From: Salinimicrobium sediminis
GTDB taxonomy: Bacteria > Bacteroidota > Bacteroidia > Flavobacteriales > Flavobacteriaceae
Assembly: GCF_900215295.1 (NCBI RefSeq)
Contig: NZ_OCMF01000003.1
Span: 248,001 to 312,000, forward strand
DNA: 64,000 nucleotides
Reading direction: 5' to 3'
Part shown: positions 21,999 to 29,257 of the stretch, piece by piece
How the letters are laid out: every line of letters starts with the position of its first letter
Numbering within the stretch: position 1 is the first letter of the stretch
Made by a program: the position numbers and the translations under genes
Notes under the pieces: generated by a model
What the model saw: only the letters and a program-made list of their open reading frames with translations
What the model was told of the DNA's origin: nothing
Database searches by the model: none

Positions 21999-22769
21999 TT
22001 AATCTCTTGCTTTTTTAATAAAATCCTGAATGTTTCCTGTGCCGTTTTCAGTGAGATGTTTAATAAACGCACTACCAATAATTGCCCCTTTTGTTTTTTC
22101 TGTAGCTGCGGAAAATGTTTCACTATCCTTGATCCCGAAACCAACAATAAGAGGATTCTTTAATCCCATTTTAGACACCCTGCTGAAGTAGTCCTTCTGA
22201 AGCTGTCCGAATCCGGCGGTGCCTCCTGTTACTGCAGCACTGCTCACCATATAGATAAAACCTTCGGAAATTTGATCGATCTGCCTGATCCTTTCTTCAG
22301 AAGTGTGGGGAGTAATAAGGAATACCGGAAGCAGGTCGTACTGCTGAAAGATATCTTTATACTGAAGCTCATATTCTTCCACCGGAAGATCGGGAATAAT
22401 AAGCCCGTCAATACCGGCTTCCTTACATTTTTGGCAGAATTTTTCCACCCCAAACTGAAGGATAGGATTAAAATAGCCCATGATCAACAAGGGAATTTGT
22501 ACGGTCTCCCGAATATGCTCCAGCTGTGCGAACAATTTATTGGTAGTCATGCCATTCTTCAGAGCAGCTTCCGAACTTCTTTGGATTACCGGGCCATCTG
22601 CTAGGGGATCGCTAAATGGAAGTCCTATTTCCACCATGTCCACCCCGCTTTTTTCAAGCTCTTGCAAAATTGGTAAGGTGTCTTCTATTTCCGGATATCC
22701 TGCCGTAAAGTAAATGGAAAGCAACTTTTTTTGAGGATCTTCCTGGAGTTTTTGTTTTATTCTGTTCAT
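21999..22769 (-). CDS. trpA: Tryptophan synthase alpha chain
   Basis: Cleaves indole-3-glycerol phosphate to indole and glyceraldehyde 3-phosphate. The indole is channelled to TrpB. Start MNRIKQKLQ; 256 residues. The active-site block VEIGLPFSDPLADGPVIQ carries the catalytic Glu and Asp, and the phosphate-binding VGFGIKD is present. Last gene of the operon, 139 bases after trpB. Confidence 0.97.
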   Translation of the reverse strand: MNRIKQKLQEDPQKKLLSIYFTAGYPEIEDTLPILQELEKSGVDMVEIGLPFSDPLADGPVIQRSSEAALKNGMTTNKLFAQLEHIRETVQIPLLIMGYFNPILQFGVEKFCQKCKEAGIDGLIIPDLPVEEYELQYKDIFQQYDLLPVFLITPHTSEERIRQIDQISEGFIYMVSSAAVTGGTAGFGQLQKDYFSRVSKMGLKNPLIVGFGIKDSETFSAATEKTKGAIIGSAFIKHLTENGTGNIQDFIKKARD

Positions 22770-22908
22770 GTTATGAGTTGTAAACCTCACAGTCCCAAAG
22801 CCTCGGGGCTGTAAGGTCATTTTAAATTTTTTAAGTCTTCAATTTTAGTTTCAGAAATGAAAAAAGTCTTGGTCCTTGGTTCTAGAAGCGCAGCGATCTT
22901 GTTTCTTT

Positions 22909-24090
22909 TTACAAATTAAAATGTTCAATATAAGTGTTGAGGTCTTTATCCCCGCGCCCGGAAAGATTTACTACCACTACATCGTCTTCCCTGAACTTAC
23001 GGGTCTCAAAAATGGCTAAAGCATGGGCTGTTTCTATAGCCGGAATAATCCCCTCCAGTTTACACAGCTCTAATCCTGCAGCCATTGCTTCCGTATCGGT
23101 GACCGAAATAAATTCGCCGCGGCCTGTCCTGAAGAGGTTGGCATGCATTGGACCCACTCCCGGATAATCTAGTCCGGCAGAGATAGAATAGGGTTCAGTG
23201 ATCTGTCCGTCGTCGGTTTGCATGAGCAGGGTTTTGCTGCCGTGAATAATGCCTTCGCGGCCAAGAGCTGAAGTGGCAGCGCTTTTCCCTGTTAATACCC
23301 CTTCTCCCGCAGCTTCTACGGCAATAATTCCCACTTTTTCCTGGTCCAGGTAGTGGTAATAGATTCCGGCGGCATTGCTTCCGCCACCCACACAGGCCAC
23401 TACAAAATCGGGGTTTTCCCGGCCTTCTTTTTCCTGCAGTTGTTTTTTTACCTCTTCAGAAATTACGCTTTGGAACCGTGCCACCATATCGGGATATGGA
23501 TGCGGTCCCACTACAGATCCTATAATATAATGGGTGTCTACCGGATTGTTAATCCAATCGCGGATAGCTTCATTGGTTGCGTCTTTGAGTGTACGGCTTC
23601 CCGAAGTTGCAGGAACAACGGTTGCTCCCAGCATTTTCATCCGGGCTACATTTGGTGCCTGTCTTTTGATGTCGATCTCGCCCATATAAACCACGCACTC
23701 AATTCCCATTAAAGCGCAAACCGTGGCGGTAGCGACCCCATGTTGTCCCGCACCGGTTTCGGCGATGATCCTGTTTTTTCCCAGGCGCTTCGCCATGAGG
23801 ATCTGACCAATTGTGTTATTAACTTTATGGGCCCCTGTATGGCAAAGATCTTCCCTTTTGAGGTAAACTTTCGTGCTGTACTTTTTGCTGAATCTTTCCG
23901 CAAAGTACAATGGTGTTGGCCTCCCCACATAGTCTTTAAGCAGCTGGCGGAATTCCTCCTGGAAACTTTCTTCCTGCATGATGTCGAGATAGCGGGACCG
24001 CAGTTCTTCCACGTTGGGGTAAAGCATTTCGGGAATGAACGCTCCACCAAAATCCCCGTAATATCCTTTTTCGTTTACTTGATAACTCAT
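22909..24090 (-). CDS. trpB: Tryptophan synthase beta chain
   Basis: PLP enzyme joining indole and serine to give tryptophan. Of 393 residues, the PLP lysine lies in [18 protein letters not shown]. The phosphate-cradle loop is [13 protein letters not shown] and the substrate loop GRPTPLY. It is the catalytic TrpB1 type paired with TrpA. It lies seven bases after trpF. Confidence 0.98.
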
Positions 24091-24097
24091 AATTCTC

Positions 24098-24754
24098 TTA
24101 TTTAAACAGCTGCTTTTTAAATGATCTTAAAGCTTCCGGATCTTTTAGGCCCGGGGCTGTTTCAAATTTGCTGTTCACATCAATTCCGTAGAACAGATGT
24201 TCTTTTTGCCTTTTTTGAAAGGTTGTATATAGTTCCTTTATTGCTTCAGTTTCTTCGGGACCTATTCCTCCGCTCAGGAAAAAGGGAGTGGAGGAGGGAT
24301 AGTCAAGGAGAACATTCCAATTAAAAGCGATTCCGTTGCCGCCCCTGTTCTTTCCTTTGGTGTCAAAGAGGTAAAGATCTGCGATGCCTTCAAAAGCTTT
24401 CAACTTCTGAAAGTCAAAATCATCTTTTATGCTGAAAACCTTTATGATCTCCACCTTTTTTCCGGCTTCTGAAAATCTGCTCTTTAGGTCTTTGCAAAAC
24501 TTCGGACTTTCCTCCCCGTGCAGCTGTACTGCTGAAAGTGCATACTTTTGGACCTTTTCAAGAATATCCTCTTCGGAAGCATTGACAAAAACTCCGGTTC
24601 TTTTGATCTCCTTATCCAATTCCTGAATTTCTCCTGAAACATGCCGCGAAGAACCCTCAAAAAAGATCAGGCCGAGGTAATCCGGTTTCAGGCCTGAAAT
24701 GGCTTTAATGTTTTCGGCTTCTCTCATGCCGCAGACTTTCAGCTTCAGGTTCAT
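24098..24754 (-). CDS. trpF: Phosphoribosylanthranilate isomerase
   Basis: Third step of tryptophan synthesis, an Amadori rearrangement in a (beta/alpha)8 barrel. The N-terminus [12 protein letters not shown] holds the catalytic Cys, and [16 protein letters not shown] the C-terminal phosphate-binding end with SGGIGPEE before it. The 218-residue length is normal. It overlaps the trpC stop by four bases, so translation is probably coupled. Confidence 0.97.
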
Positions 24755-25545
24755 TTTGATCTGCTTTTAAGTTCGTTGATAAATTCCGAAGCACTTTTGC
24801 CCGGATCTTCAGTCTTCATAAAATTCCCGCCGATAAGAAATCCCTGAAATCCGCTTTTTTGAAGCTCCAGGATAGCTGTGGTATCGCTGATGCCGCTTTC
24901 GGAGATCTTCACATATTGCCCCGGAATTTTTTCCGCAAGATCTTTGCTGGTTTGCAGGTTCACCTCGAAGGTTTTCAGGTTTCTATTATTGACACCTATC
25001 ATATCTATGGTGTCAAAAATGTTGTTTTTAAGCTCCTCTTCATTGTGCACTTCCAGGAGTACCTCGAGTCCCAGTGCTTTTGCTTTTTTAGAAAACTGTT
25101 CTACCTGCTTCGGTTTAAGCATGGCAGCGATCAAAAGGATCACATCAGCACCCATGGCTTTTGCTTCAATAAGCTGGTATTCGTCGATAATAAAGTCCTT
25201 TCGCAGCAGCGGTAATTTCACTGTTTCCCTTGCCACAGCCAGATCGTCAAGGCTGCCGCCGAAGAAATCTTCATCTGTAAGTACAGAAATTCCGCAAGCT
25301 CCCGCAGCTTCATAAGCTTTGGTCACTTCAGCAACATCTGCACCGAGATTTATTTCGGGGTGAGATGGCGAGCGCCTTTTAAATTCGGAGATAATTCCGG
25401 TTTTGGATTTTTTCAGATTCTCCTTTAGTGAAAAACATTTCCGTTTGAAATGGGGGAGCATCTGGAGCGTTTCTACCGGAACTTCTTCCTTAAGGATCTC
25501 CACTTCCTCTCTTTTCCTGGCTGCTATTTTATCGAGTATGTTCAT
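24751..25545 (-). CDS. trpC: Indole-3-glycerol-phosphate synthase
   Basis: Fourth step of tryptophan synthesis. The family start ILDKIAARKREEVEILKE, ISEFKRRSPSHPEIN and the catalytic-Lys block LPLLRKDFIIDEYQLIEA are visible, followed by GVNNRNLKTFEV and SESGIS. At 264 residues it is monofunctional, not fused to trpF as in E. coli. Four bases after trpD. Confidence 0.97.
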   Translation of the reverse strand: MNILDKIAARKREEVEILKEEVPVETLQMLPHFKRKCFSLKENLKKSKTGIISEFKRRSPSHPEINLGADVAEVTKAYEAAGACGISVLTDEDFFGGSLDDLAVARETVKLPLLRKDFIIDEYQLIEAKAMGADVILLIAAMLKPKQVEQFSKKAKALGLEVLLEVHNEEELKNNIFDTIDMIGVNNRNLKTFEVNLQTSKDLAEKIPGQYVKISESGISDTTAILELQKSGFQGFLIGGNFMKTEDPGKSASEFINELKSRSK

Positions 25546-25549
25546 CTTT

Positions 25550-26539
25550 CTAATTTAATTGCTGAAGCTTTTTAAATGCCCCCAGTGCCTTACCTGAAGC
25601 CAGACTTTCCCTGGCTGCTAAAAATGCATTTTCGGGATTTGTTTTTTGGACGGTGCTTATCGCCATAGCCGCGTTGGCACAAACCACATTCATTTGGGCC
25701 TCAGTTCCTTCATTTTGAAGCACATTCATAAAGATCTCTGCAGCAGATTCAATAGTGTTCCCTCCTGAAATCTGCGACGCCATGATAGGTTGCAGGTTCA
25801 GATCTTCGGGCTTTAGCATGCTTTCTGCGTGATTTGTAATCATTTTGGTGTTTCCGGTAAGGGATATCTCATCATAGCCGTCAAGCGCGTGTAAAATGGT
25901 AAAATTCTTATCGGTTTTCTGGTAAAGGTAAGCATACATCCTGGCAAGCTCCAGACTGTAAACGCCTACCACCTGGTTCTTCGGAAACGCGGGGTTCACC
26001 ATGGGTCCCAGCATGTTGAAAAAGGTCTTAACGCCAAGGTTTTTTCTAATGGGTGCCACATTCTTCATCGCGGGGTGAAAAAGGGCAGCGTGTAAAAAAC
26101 AGATCCCCGCTTTGTCCATACTGCGATCTAAAAAGTCCTTATCACTACTGAATTTTATCCCCAGATATTCCATCACATTCGAGCTGCCGCAACTGGAGGA
26201 AACACCATAATTTCCGTGTTTCGCCACTTTTACTCCGGCGCCGGCAGTAACGAAAGAAGCAAGAGTCGATATATTGAAAGTGTCCTTGCCGTCACCTCCT
26301 GTACCACAAAGATCCACCGGATCATATTGCTGCAGGTCTACCGAAAGGCACATCTCAAGCAAGGCATCTCTAAAGCCTTCAAGCTCTTCAAGGGTGATAC
26401 TGCGCATCATATACACGGTAAGAAAAGCAGCAATTTGGCTGTCATTAAAGCTGCCGTTGGAAATTTCTACCAATACACCTTTAGCCTCCTCGCGGGAGAT
26501 GGTTTCATGGTTGATCAACCTGTTCAAAATTTGCTTCAT
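25550..26539 (-). CDS. trpD: Anthranilate phosphoribosyltransferase
   Basis: Second step of tryptophan synthesis: adds phosphoribose to anthranilate. The PRPP loop LCGTGGDGKDTFNIS and KHGNYGVSSSCGSSNVMEYLG are typical. The 329-residue length shows it is not fused to the glutaminase. Three bases after trpG. Confidence 0.97.
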   Translation of the reverse strand: MKQILNRLINHETISREEAKGVLVEISNGSFNDSQIAAFLTVYMMRSITLEELEGFRDALLEMCLSVDLQQYDPVDLCGTGGDGKDTFNISTLASFVTAGAGVKVAKHGNYGVSSSCGSSNVMEYLGIKFSSDKDFLDRSMDKAGICFLHAALFHPAMKNVAPIRKNLGVKTFFNMLGPMVNPAFPKNQVVGVYSLELARMYAYLYQKTDKNFTILHALDGYDEISLTGNTKMITNHAESMLKPEDLNLQPIMASQISGGNTIESAAEIFMNVLQNEGTEAQMNVVCANAAMAISTVQKTNPENAFLAARESLASGKALGAFKKLQQLN

Positions 26540-26542
26540 TTT

Positions 26543-27217
26543 CTAAAAGATTTCAGGTTCCTGGGATTCATTTGCTGGTTCAGTCAATTTAACCGGACTG
26601 TTGATCCAATTGGCGATGATCTTCTTACCTTCGGGTGTAAGTACAGATTCCGGATGGAATTGCACGCCGCGCACATCGTAGATCCTGTGCCGAAGGGACA
26701 TCACCTGCCCGTTCTCATCATAAGAAGTCGCTTCAAGACAATCTGGCAAAGCTTTATCCACCACCCAGGAATGGTAGCGGCCCACTTCCATTTCGGGATC
26801 CATTTTGTCGAACAGGGGTTCATCTGTTACGCATAATTTAATTTTGGAGGAGACTCCATGAAATACTTGCTCAAGATTGATCAATTTACCGCCAAAAACT
26901 TCTCCTATAGCCTGCTGCCCAAGACACACTCCAAAAATGCTTTTTTTGGAGGCGTAGGTAGAAATCACCTGCTTTAACAATCCCGCTTCGTCGGGAATTC
27001 CCGGGCCGGGTGAAAGCAGGATCTTATCATATTTTTCGATTTCCTCGAGATCCACTTCATCATTACGTCGCACAGTCACTTTACAGTCCAGCTCCTCCAG
27101 GTAATGGACTAGATTGTAAACAAAGGAGTCGTAATTATCGATCACCAAAACTTTTAAAGCTCCCTTATCTTCGCTGAAGGGGAGGGAATCCTGATCTTTA
27201 TTTTGTTTATTCTTCAT
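26543..27217 (-). CDS. trpG: Anthranilate synthase glutaminase subunit
   Basis: Supplies ammonia from glutamine to TrpE. Class I amidotransferase with the nucleophile Cys in FGVCLGQQAIGE and the His-Glu pair in VQFHPESVLTPEG. The conserved start VLVIDNYDSFVYNLVHYLEE is preceded by about 22 Lys/Asn/Asp-rich residues from MKNKQNK; no start codon lies closer. An earlier in-frame ATG nine codons up is also possible. The acidic tail TEPANESQEPEIF is unusual. Confidence 0.95.
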   Translation of the reverse strand: MKNKQNKDQDSLPFSEDKGALKVLVIDNYDSFVYNLVHYLEELDCKVTVRRNDEVDLEEIEKYDKILLSPGPGIPDEAGLLKQVISTYASKKSIFGVCLGQQAIGEVFGGKLINLEQVFHGVSSKIKLCVTDEPLFDKMDPEMEVGRYHSWVVDKALPDCLEATSYDENGQVMSLRHRIYDVRGVQFHPESVLTPEGKKIIANWINSPVKLTEPANESQEPEIF

Positions 27218-27277
27218 AATTCGAATTTTGTTCTTGTCCTCCAATTTCTCCCCTCCTTTGAAGGGGCAGGGGGAGGC

Positions 27278-28672
27278 TTATATTTCTTCAGCCAATTCCA
27301 GGGCCTTTTTCAAAGCGCCAATTTTATTATACACTTCCTGTAACTCATTTTCTTCGGTCGATCCTGAGACTATTCCGGCGCCTGCCTGATAGTAAAGTCG
27401 GTGGTTTTTACTTAGAAAAGACCTGATGATGATCGCATGGTTGAAATTTCCGTTGAAATCCATGAACCCGATTGCGCCACCATAAAAATCCCGGTTCACA
27501 TTTTCATATTTTTCAATGAGTTGCATTGCCTTATGTTTTGGTGCTCCACTTAAGGTTCCCGCGGGAAAGGTGTCGGCCACTACCTGCATAGTGCTGGTAT
27601 TTGGATCTTTGGTGCCGGTAACTTTGCTCACCAGGTGGATGACGTGCGAGAAATATTGGATTTCTTTGTAGGTCTCCACATTTACGTGGCTGCCATGGCG
27701 ACTAAGATCGTTACGGGCGAGATCTACAAGCATCACGTGTTCTGCATTCTCCTTTTCGTCGGCAGCCAGGGCTTTTGCGCTCGCGGCATCCTGTTCATCA
27801 TTTCCGGTGCGCTTAAAGGTCCCTGCAATGGGATGGATCTCGGCCTTTCCGTCTTTCACAACCAGCTGGGCTTCAGGCGAGCTTCCGAAGATCTTGAAAT
27901 TTCCGTAGTCAAAGTAAAAGAGGTAGGGTGAAGGATTCACATTCCGCAGCGCCCGGTAAACATTAAATTCATCTCCCTTGAAGGCCTGTGAGAAACGACG
28001 GGAAAGCACTAACTGAAAAACATCTCCCCTGTGGCAATGCTGCTTGGCCTTAATAACCATTTGCCGGTAACCTTCATCGGTTTCATTAGATTGCGTTTCG
28101 CCTTCCGCAGAAAAAGGGTAGGAGGCAAAATTTTTCACTTTTAGTAACTGGCCTATCTGTTCGAGATTATTTTTAGAATCATAGCTGTGATCAAAAATAT
28201 AAGCTTCATTGTTGAAGTGATTGATCGCGATAATATTTTGGTAGACGGCGTAATAGATCTCCGGAATTTCGAGATCTCCCTGCTTTTTTGAGAGCTTCAG
28301 GTTTTCAAAATACTGCACTCCGTCATACGCGATATACCCGAAGAGTCCTTCATTGATAAAGCTGAAATCCGGGCCCGTGGTACTGAACTTTTGAGCAAAT
28401 TCCTGTATGGCTTCAGGAACATTTACCTCGGAAGTAATTTTTGTTTCGGAAATATGTCCGTCAGGAAAAACCTGCTTTAAATGTCCTTTTTCGACCTTAA
28501 CTGAAGCGATGGGATTGCAGCAAATGTAGGAGAAACTGTTCTCGTTCCCGTGGTAATCACTACTCTCCAGGAGTAAGCTGTTGGGGAAAATATCCCTTAC
28601 CCGCAGGTAAACACTCACCGGAGTAAAAGTATCTGCGAGTAATTTTTTATATGTGGTGTTAAGATTGTACAT
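27278..28672 (-). CDS. trpE: Anthranilate synthase component I
   Basis: First committed step: chorismate to anthranilate. The N-terminal LLLESSDYHGN matches the Leu-Leu-Glu-Ser tryptophan feedback site, so the enzyme is probably inhibited by Trp. The catalytic part has FQLVLSRRF, FGSSPEAQLV, HPIAGTFKRTG and TFPAGTLSGAPKHKAM. At 464 residues it is a normal length. First structural gene of trpEGDCFBA; its transcription reads through the attenuator just upstream. Confidence 0.98.
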   Translation of the reverse strand: MYNLNTTYKKLLADTFTPVSVYLRVRDIFPNSLLLESSDYHGNENSFSYICCNPIASVKVEKGHLKQVFPDGHISETKITSEVNVPEAIQEFAQKFSTTGPDFSFINEGLFGYIAYDGVQYFENLKLSKKQGDLEIPEIYYAVYQNIIAINHFNNEAYIFDHSYDSKNNLEQIGQLLKVKNFASYPFSAEGETQSNETDEGYRQMVIKAKQHCHRGDVFQLVLSRRFSQAFKGDEFNVYRALRNVNPSPYLFYFDYGNFKIFGSSPEAQLVVKDGKAEIHPIAGTFKRTGNDEQDAASAKALAADEKENAEHVMLVDLARNDLSRHGSHVNVETYKEIQYFSHVIHLVSKVTGTKDPNTSTMQVVADTFPAGTLSGAPKHKAMQLIEKYENVNRDFYGGAIGFMDFNGNFNHAIIIRSFLSKNHRLYYQAGAGIVSGSTEENELQEVYNKIGALKKALELAEEI

Positions 28673-28681
28673 GCTTCAGTT

Positions 28682-28721
28682 TTTAAAATAAAAAAAGGCT
28701 TGTCGTGATTGACAAGCCTTT
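28682..28721 (-). terminator. trp attenuator (intrinsic terminator before trpE)
   Basis: On the minus strand an 11-bp perfect stem, AAAGGCTTGTC (28721-28711) with GACAAGCCTTT (28704-28694), has a six-base loop. A long T-rich tail follows, and the trpE ATG comes about 10 bases after it. The stop codon of the leader peptide is 24 bases upstream of the stem. Confidence 0.9.
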
Positions 28722-28744
28722 GTATATGCTACAGGAGGTGTTGC

Positions 28745-28801
28745 TCACGACGATCGACGTAAGTAATTCCACCACCAGTTATTTTTAATGTTCGGGTTCA
28801 T
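28745..28801 (-). CDS. trpL: trp operon leader peptide with three tandem Trp codons
   Basis: The 18-residue peptide MNPNIKNNWWWNYLRRSS ends in TGA and lies directly before an intrinsic terminator and trpE. Codons 9-11 are TGG TGG TGG. Three adjacent Trp codons by chance in such a place are very unlikely, so this is a ribosome-stalling sensor of charged tRNA-Trp. The bases covering its last codons (28751-28745, GTCGTGA) are complementary to 28708-28702 in the terminator loop and 3' arm, a possible antiterminator contact. A longer in-frame ORF upstream lacks any support. Confidence 0.9.
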   Translation of the reverse strand: MNPNIKNNWWWNYLRRSS

Positions 28802-28809
28802 GTGAGGAG

Positions 28810-28817
28810 CAAATATA
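28810..28817 (-). promoter_or_regulatory. Candidate -7 element of the trp operon
   Basis: The minus strand reads TATATTTG, an exact TAnnTTTG match, eight bases before the leader ATG. The transcript would then have almost no 5' untranslated region. No -33 TTG at the expected distance. Confidence 0.5.
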
Positions 28818-28945: not shown

Positions 28946-29257
28946 ATGAAAGAGTTAAAACAGGAAGATTGGAAAGAACAATTATCTAAAGATGATAATG
29001 CAGTTATACTTGATGTACGTACAGAAGAGGAAGTAGAGGAGGGATACATTCCTAAGGCTAAAAACCTCGATATCTATAAAGGGCAGGAATTCATCGATGA
29101 AATTGATAAGCTGGATAAAGACAAGAATTATTACATTTATTGCAGATCTGGCAAGAGAAGTGCGCAGGCATGTACAATAATGGATCAAAAAGGGTTTCGG
29201 AACACCTATAATCTCATTGGGGGCTATTCAGAATGGGAAGGGGAAACTGTAGAATAA
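28946..29257 (+). CDS. Single-domain rhodanese-like protein
   Basis: Sulfurtransferase-fold protein of 103 residues. The active-site loop YCRSGKRSAQ carries the catalytic Cys, and VILDVRTEEEVEEGYIPKAKNL is the typical N-terminal block. It lacks a signal peptide, so it is cytosolic. The sulfur acceptor is unknown. It is monocistronic, between its own promoter and terminator. Confidence 0.93.
   Translation: MKELKQEDWKEQLSKDDNAVILDVRTEEEVEEGYIPKAKNLDIYKGQEFIDEIDKLDKDKNYYIYCRSGKRSAQACTIMDQKGFRNTYNLIGGYSEWEGETVE

Follow-up and report, generated by a model that had tools for sequence, protein, structure and literature searches.

The trp attenuator of enteric bacteria combines Trp codons in its leader with alternative 1:2, 2:3, and 3:4 pairings, and its region 2 is aimed mainly at the 5′ arm of the terminator. 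In Bacteroidetes, the Bacteroid-trp RNA family was defined by Weinberg et al. in 2010 (PMC2864571) and has been compared with the E. coli trp leader and placed ahead of the F. psychrophilum trp operon (PMC6414381). Strong clues for leader peptide attenuation before the amino acid operons of F. psychrophilum have also been presented (PMC9723704). The same source locates a TAnnTTTG promoter box at −12 to −5 in this bacterium, gives leaderless messages as 5.5% of those of 890 CDSs, and reports Shine-Dalgarno sites to be absent in these bacteria. A trp leader RNA that begins at the leader ATG is known from S. meliloti (PMC7298713).

The window considered here is a 64,000-nucleotide stretch of Salinimicrobium sediminis DNA, and the element under study lies on its minus strand upstream of trpE. 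On the evidence of sequence and comparison, it is most probable (roughly 88%) that this element controls the trpEGDCFBA operon by ribosome-mediated transcription attenuation, belongs to the Bacteroid-trp family, and switches by capture of the terminator loop. As a member of a catalogued leader RNA family, the element is of a kind already known. What appears to be new is comparative support for its antiterminator, which in Flavobacteriaceae seems to be aimed at the terminator loop, together with the apparent recurrence of a very short 5′ leader.

Organization of the trp Leader and Operon

Rereading of the minus strand bore out the arrangement given in a preliminary description of this DNA, in which an 18-residue ORF with three Trp codons is followed by a terminator and then by trpE (Table 1). 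Direct reading also confirmed the exact −7 box TATATTTG, which a spacer of eight bases separates from the leader ATG at position 28801. The terminator stem is formed by positions 28721-28711 and 28704-28694, enclosing the loop AATCAC (28710-28705). The complementarity described between GUCGUGA (28751-28745) and UCACGAC (28708-28702) was found to be exact.

Table 1. Positions in the window of the trp leader elements and of the genes that follow them
Feature	Position	Strand	Basis
−7 promoter box TATATTTG, consensus TAnnTTTG	28817-28810	minus	direct reading
Predicted 4-nt 5′ untranslated leader	28802-28805	minus	predicted start site 28805, inferred from box position
Leader ORF MNPNIKNNWWWNYLRRSS*, 18 codons	28801-28745	minus	direct reading
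(TGG)3, three adjacent Trp codons in leader ORF	28777-28769	minus	sequence and alignment of 51 relatives
Region 1 CUUACG, 5′ arm of small 1:2 hairpin with 28749-28744	28758-28763	minus	fold
Region 2 GUCGUGA at leader stop codon, putative antiterminator half	28751-28745	minus	hexamer conservation and co-evolution
Region 3 target UCACGAC, terminator apical loop and first 3′-arm bases	28708-28702	minus	
Intrinsic terminator hairpin, 11 bp, 6-nt loop	28721-28694	minus	folding and alignment
Terminator U tract, seven T	28696-28690	minus	direct reading
trpE, anthranilate synthase component I, ATG at 28672	27278-28672	minus	best model TIGR00564, below curated cut-off
trpG-like glutamine amidotransferase, start codon uncertain	26543-27244	minus	TIGR00566 over cut-off
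trpD	25550-26539	minus	TIGR01245 over cut-off
trpC	24751-25545	minus	NF001377 over cut-off
trpF	24098-24754	minus	best models below their cut-offs
trpB	22909-24090	minus	TIGR00263 over cut-off
trpA, start codon uncertain	21999-22820	minus	TIGR00262 over cut-off

A divergent gene with a rhodanese-like domain (28946-29257, plus strand), for which the matches fell below curated cut-offs, lies directly upstream of the trp promoter. The closest relatives of this locus are in Salinimicrobium, and TrpE of one locus from the same genus (L001) is 96% identical.

Conservation of the Trp-codon Leader Upstream of trpE

Upstream regions of trpE were taken from the best 80 records and 30 further genomes, giving 110 loci. 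Seven of these were dropped as duplicates to leave 103 distinct regions, the best-80 part of which leans to close relatives. With a loose rule (ATG, GTG, or TTG start, 8 to 45 residues, containing WW), a leader ORF was found in 102 of the 103 regions; the exception is L063, whose contig ends 527 nt before trpE with no leader in that interval. With a strict rule (ATG start, 8 to 30 residues, no more than 500 nt upstream of trpE), WW was present in 95 and WWW in 90 of the 103 regions. The corresponding values were 1/103 and 0/103 for reverse complements and 7/1030 and 0/1030 for shuffled sequences. Given the contrast between WWW in 90/103 regions and in none of either control, chance occurrence of the Trp ORF was ruled out.

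A second set consisted of 100 more divergent regions, hand-chosen among the matches listed. The WW ORF was present in 9 of 9 regions from the same order outside Flavobacteriaceae, 23 of 26 from the class, 43 of 45 from additional Flavobacteriaceae, and 11 of 20 from the phylum, being missing from 3, 2, and 9 regions of the last three groups, respectively. The strict rule returned 9 order, 23 class, 41 family, and 8 phylum regions, with 2, 2, 3, and 2 hits when each region was shuffled ten times; these shuffled controls apply to the strict rule alone. Two of the three class-level misses have W-L-W instead. One of the family-level misses (L179, from G319) is an artefact of the 500-nt cut, as a covariance model of the leader (see below) places it ∼400 nt upstream. 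Overall, a Trp-codon leader before trpE appears to be widespread in the sampled Bacteroidota, less evenly so at the phylum level.

The two sets amount to 203 regions, of which 184 remained once 15 that lacked a WW leader and 4 with no recognized terminator had been removed. In an alignment of 139 distinct leaders from 144 Flavobacteriaceae, 1489 of 1521 terminator cells were paired, and changes on both sides were observed at several pairs. The preliminary description had made its case dependent on the Trp codons and the terminator being conserved in related genomes, and alignment of the trpE upstream regions of relatives revealed that both are.

Some loci depart from the usual layout. The distance from the leader stop codon to trpE is 433–531 nt in L008, L009, L010, L051, L053, L067, and L072, compared with mostly 67–151 nt elsewhere, and the gap in these seven loci holds an ORF end similar to ...REKQLKKWNR.WKINLINDFNP.WEDL, as if a small gene had been inserted between the attenuator and trpE. 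We take this end to resemble that of a GIY-YIG family protein. Longer leader readings of 29 to 45 residues, with a start adjoining the −7 box, were found in L045, L057, L007, and L010, and the leader peptide may have been lengthened in some lineages. A single in-frame TAA interrupts one trpE match (G111:C23:16190-17575).

Promoter and Predicted 5′ End

With the box offset known from F. psychrophilum, the 5′ leader in the window is predicted to be 4 nt in length. In 138 of the 144 Flavobacteriaceae, the leader has an in-frame start 2–25 nt downstream of a −7 box. The commonest gap was 5 nt (46 genomes), and a second group was found at 16–21 nt (36 genomes). The predicted 5′ leader was 5 nt or less in 87 of the 138, a count obtained with a rule that takes the in-frame start nearest the box and so favours short distances. 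As a distance control, the window provides 51 ORFs of at least 150 residues, of which 8 have a box within 100 nt and 2 have one at 9 nt or less, numbers that are too small for the purpose. A near-leaderless arrangement is predicted to be common in Flavobacteriaceae without being universal.

The preliminary description considered the message to be leaderless and regarded this as unusual for attenuation. An extremely short 5′ leader is indeed predicted, so the first claim is retained in the modified form of a near-leaderless (4 nt) rather than a leaderless message. The second is weakened by the leaderless trp attenuator already described in S. meliloti, and the finding of this design in Bacteroidetes, also remarked on there, becomes less surprising in view of the catalogued Bacteroid-trp family.

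Relationship to the Bacteroid-trp RNA Family

An Rfam scan of the whole window at gathering cut-offs returned no element, the T-box included, and offered no other known RNA element as a candidate. In a search by E-value threshold, the leader matched RF01692 (Bacteroid-trp) at 46.7 bits, against a gathering cut-off of 49, with an E-value of 1e-4 for 301 bases and a match over the full model length (1–131). Of 20 relatives, all with loci upstream of trpE, 14 scored at or above the RF01692 cut-off, including the same-genus L001 at 49.1 bits. Four of 20 were above it in a more divergent set, in which 3 more scored 44–47 bits, and 1 of 15 was above it in a third, partly overlapping set that included hisG and pheA loci. 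The other mark of the family, a Bacteroidetes leader ORF with Trp codons ahead of a trp gene, is present. RF00513 (Trp_leader) was absent among the 19 Rfam matches obtained for the window leader up to an E-value of 10; a divergent relative from the family (L151) matched RF00513 at 31.6 bits, with a cut-off of 41.

The RF01692 structure is one long hairpin in which the Trp-codon region pairs with downstream bases, ending at AAAGGCUUGUC, which is the 5′ arm of the terminator. The 3′ half of the terminator, the U tract, and the loop-directed pairing all lie outside the model. No description of a loop-directed pairing in Bacteroid-trp was found in the open-access literature searched. The available text of PMC4833913 and PMC7366714 added nothing on the Bacteroidetes trp leader, and a term search of PMC2965389 gave no hits on the leader.

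Predicted Folding of the Leader

When a ribosome was assumed to be at the Trp codons, leaving RNA available for pairing from a point 15 nt past the first nucleotide of the third Trp codon onward, the lengthening transcript of the window folded into a 17-bp interrupted antiterminator hairpin of −16.6 kcal/mol. Its helices are GUCGUGA:UCACGAC, ACA:UGU, CCU:AGG, and UGUA:UACA. With the ribosome at the stop codon, only the terminator formed, apart from a 3-bp hairpin. The preliminary description had given the pairing as only 7 bp, touching no more than the stem top. It is predicted to reach further, as the 17-bp hairpin also takes up bases of the terminator 5′ arm. The complete leader folded preferentially into the terminator and, therefore, antitermination would need to be kinetic.

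Among the 144 Flavobacteriaceae, the terminator loop was predicted to be captured in 142 with the ribosome at the Trp codons and in 3 with the ribosome at the stop codon, compared with 170 of 720 shuffled controls. The ribosome was assumed to cover 9 or 12 nt past the last Trp codon; the counts given are for 12 nt, and those for 9 nt differ by no more than one genome. The folding test was weak beyond Flavobacteriaceae, with capture in 18 of 31 genomes of the order and class (control, 61/155) and 2 of 9 of the phylum (control, 17/45).

Several classical hallmarks of attenuation can be recognized at this locus. The sequence contains a short leader ORF with tandem Trp codons before a trp operon, and sequence and folding together place an intrinsic terminator between the leader and the first structural gene. 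Computation adds a mutually exclusive antiterminator that would be exposed by stalling and masked with the ribosome at the stop codon. The switch suggested in the preliminary description, with region 2 free when the ribosome is at the Trp codons and covered when it is at the stop codon, is thus supported computationally, by the contrast between 142/144 and 3/144 and by the co-evolution described below.

Co-evolution of Region 2 with the Terminator Loop

The hexamer T[CT]G[TC]GA was present in 128 of the 144 Flavobacteriaceae, and in 120 it was positioned 17–19 nt past the last Trp codon. All three reading frames are represented (98, 22, and 8 genomes), and the stop codon ends the hexamer in 77 genomes, comes after it in 23, and comes before it in 28. 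This use of every frame and the shifting position of the stop codon imply that the hexamer is kept as RNA and not as peptide.

Co-evolution was assessed from the duplex energy of the leader segment with its own terminator loop relative to that with permuted partners (2000 permutations). For 62 Flavobacteriaceae with distinct terminators, the matched value was −9.69 kcal/mol and the permuted value −8.42 kcal/mol (z = −6.5), and none of the 2000 permutations was as good. Values of −8.87 and −6.51 kcal/mol (z = −7.2; again 0/2000 as good) were obtained for 40 other Bacteroidota. The terminator 3′ arm alone gave no excess, 930 and 940 of 2000 permutations being as good in Flavobacteriaceae and the others, respectively. 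No matched excess was seen for the 5′ arm in Flavobacteriaceae (1700/2000 as good), whereas outside this family the 5′ arm co-evolves (0/2000 for the 40 genomes and also for the 31 of the order and class), and in the 9 phylum-level genomes its matched excess was greater than that of the loop. When a single genome was drawn per family (12 families of the order and class, plus the window), 0 of 1000 permutations were as good in each of 20 draws, and relatedness is therefore insufficient to explain the co-evolution.

Six core pairs were each retained in 129–133 of the 139 aligned Flavobacteriaceae (one pair, 129/138), whereas the seventh, 28751:28702, was paired in just 57/139. Sliding one side by 1 to 3 positions lowered the paired cells of the seven pairs from 86% to 9–49%. 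Given that most pairs hardly vary inside the family, it is chiefly genomes from elsewhere that provide evidence based on sequence change. Changes on both sides are found in L110 (TCGCGA with TCGCGA) and L162 (TTGTCGCAAT with ATTGCGACAA). The 1:2 hairpin, CUUACG:CGUGAG, was partly conserved (six pairs in 79 to 125 of 139), and the inner antiterminator helices were also conserved in part in this alignment. These comparisons indicate that the leader stop-codon region co-evolves with the terminator apical loop, which is the pairing that the preliminary description had put forward.

The same data bear on a reading in which the attenuator is real and antitermination proceeds by the RF01692 hairpin and 5′-arm pairing only, the loop complementarity being a by-product. 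Such a reading would fit the Rfam structure, one long hairpin that stops at the 5′ arm, and the matched excess of the 5′ arm outside Flavobacteriaceae (0/2000), which in the 9 phylum-level genomes surpasses the excess for the loop. We nevertheless consider it unlikely, as in Flavobacteriaceae the 5′ arm stands at 1700/2000 against 0/2000 for the loop, and the six core pairs are retained in 129 to 133 of 139 relatives. Far harder to reconcile with the data is a constitutive terminator accompanied by an incidental small ORF, with trp control exerted elsewhere by a repressor, a TRAP-like protein, or a T-box. A WW leader occurs in 102 of 103 distinct relatives, no Rfam element, including the T-box, reached its gathering score in the window, and the co-evolving pairing would have no evident role, all of which renders this explanation very improbable.

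A further proposal would supplement attenuation, the released short leader RNA or peptide acting in trans by analogy with rnTrpL/peTrpL of S. meliloti. The layout in that organism is similar, in that a terminator closes a small, near-leaderless mRNA (PMC7298713), and the residues flanking WWW (N-T/N-WWW..LR) are shared by many relatives. However, as these residues overlap the pairing regions, constraint on the RNA can account for them, and the stop position varies among relatives; an additional trans-acting role is judged quite unlikely here.

Genomic Scope and Other Amino Acid Leaders

A covariance model of the trp leader was built from 51 hand-chosen leaders. In 59 of 60 family genomes it gave a match with an E-value no higher than 0.001, and in 57 of the 60 a match lay, judged by coordinates, upstream of trpE within ∼400 nt. 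G317 was missed by the model, yet a WWW leader is present (L151). The S. sediminis genome yielded a single match, at trpE, and occurrence of the element at many operons was rejected on this basis. A further 25 weaker rows had E-values of 7e-6 or worse. Two of them are antisense over the trp leader itself, and the five that were inspected are terminators at gene ends with no WW leader.

In the S. sediminis genome, no short ORF was found behind an exact −7 box at trpS, and there was no match to ilvD (PF00920). Upstream of hisG (L211, 1196-1252), a leader ORF, MKAQQLHHHHSHSFALAR, has its ATG 9 nt past a −7 box and is accompanied by a strong terminator; it is a candidate near-leaderless His attenuator. 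Upstream of pheA (L212, reverse complement 1352-1426), a leader ORF, MQNISWSAWYYFYFYSRDRIGSAM, with a strong terminator and no exact box is a candidate Phe/Tyr attenuator. Because the same genome carries these short-peptide leaders at hisG and pheA, this could be a more general mode of amino acid control there.

Proposed Mechanism and Comparison with Known Attenuators

Ribosome-mediated trp attenuation, as claimed in the preliminary description, is strongly supported by comparison, the leader, its Trp codons, the terminator, and the co-varying pairing all being conserved. For the preferred reading, attenuation by loop capture, sequence and comparison show the elements, how they are conserved, and the co-evolution of the pairing; the start site, ribosome stalling, kinetics, and a response to Trp are inferred. 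Transcription would start a few bases before the leader AUG, such that the ribosome would begin nearly at the 5′ end. With charged tRNA-Trp plentiful, the ribosome would reach the stop codon and cover region 2, the terminator would fold, and RNA polymerase would stop before trpE. With tRNA-Trp charging scarce, the ribosome would wait at the Trp codons, and region 2, being free, would catch the terminator apical loop as it emerges. Loop capture, together with the shorter 5′-arm pairings, would then delay terminator folding long enough for the polymerase to pass.

A more tentative suggestion, to which we assign somewhat less than even odds, is that the trp attenuators of Flavobacteriaceae, and partly those of other Bacteroidia, constitute a distinct mechanical variant. 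In this variant, a near-leaderless start without a Shine-Dalgarno site would be combined with loop capture that blocks hairpin nucleation, rather than mainly with sequestration of the 5′ arm. The locus provides a compact natural test of how attenuation operates when the message has almost no 5′ leader, in bacteria reported to lack Shine-Dalgarno sites, and a fuller Rfam model should include the terminator and the bases of the loop pairing.

The closest described system, Bacteroid-trp (RF01692), resembles the locus in its Trp leader and in the AAAGGCUUGUC that lies downstream; it differs in that the window scores below the cut-off and the RF01692 model stops in the 5′ arm. With the enterobacterial trp attenuator (RF00513), the locus has in common the Trp codons, the 1:2, 2:3, and 3:4 logic, and a terminator before trpE, whereas its leader is predicted to be near-leaderless and its region 2 to target the terminator loop. 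The trpL attenuator of S. meliloti likewise has a Trp-codon leader before trpE and an RNA that starts at the leader ATG, compared with a predicted 4 nt before it in the window, but it belongs to another phylum and trans roles have been shown for it (PMC7298713). Finally, the actinobacterial trp attenuators (PMC1262725) resemble the present element in having a leader with double or triple UGG and conserved triples common to antiterminator and terminator, and they differ from it in lineage and in their GC-rich pattern, gGCC-rGCy-GGCC.
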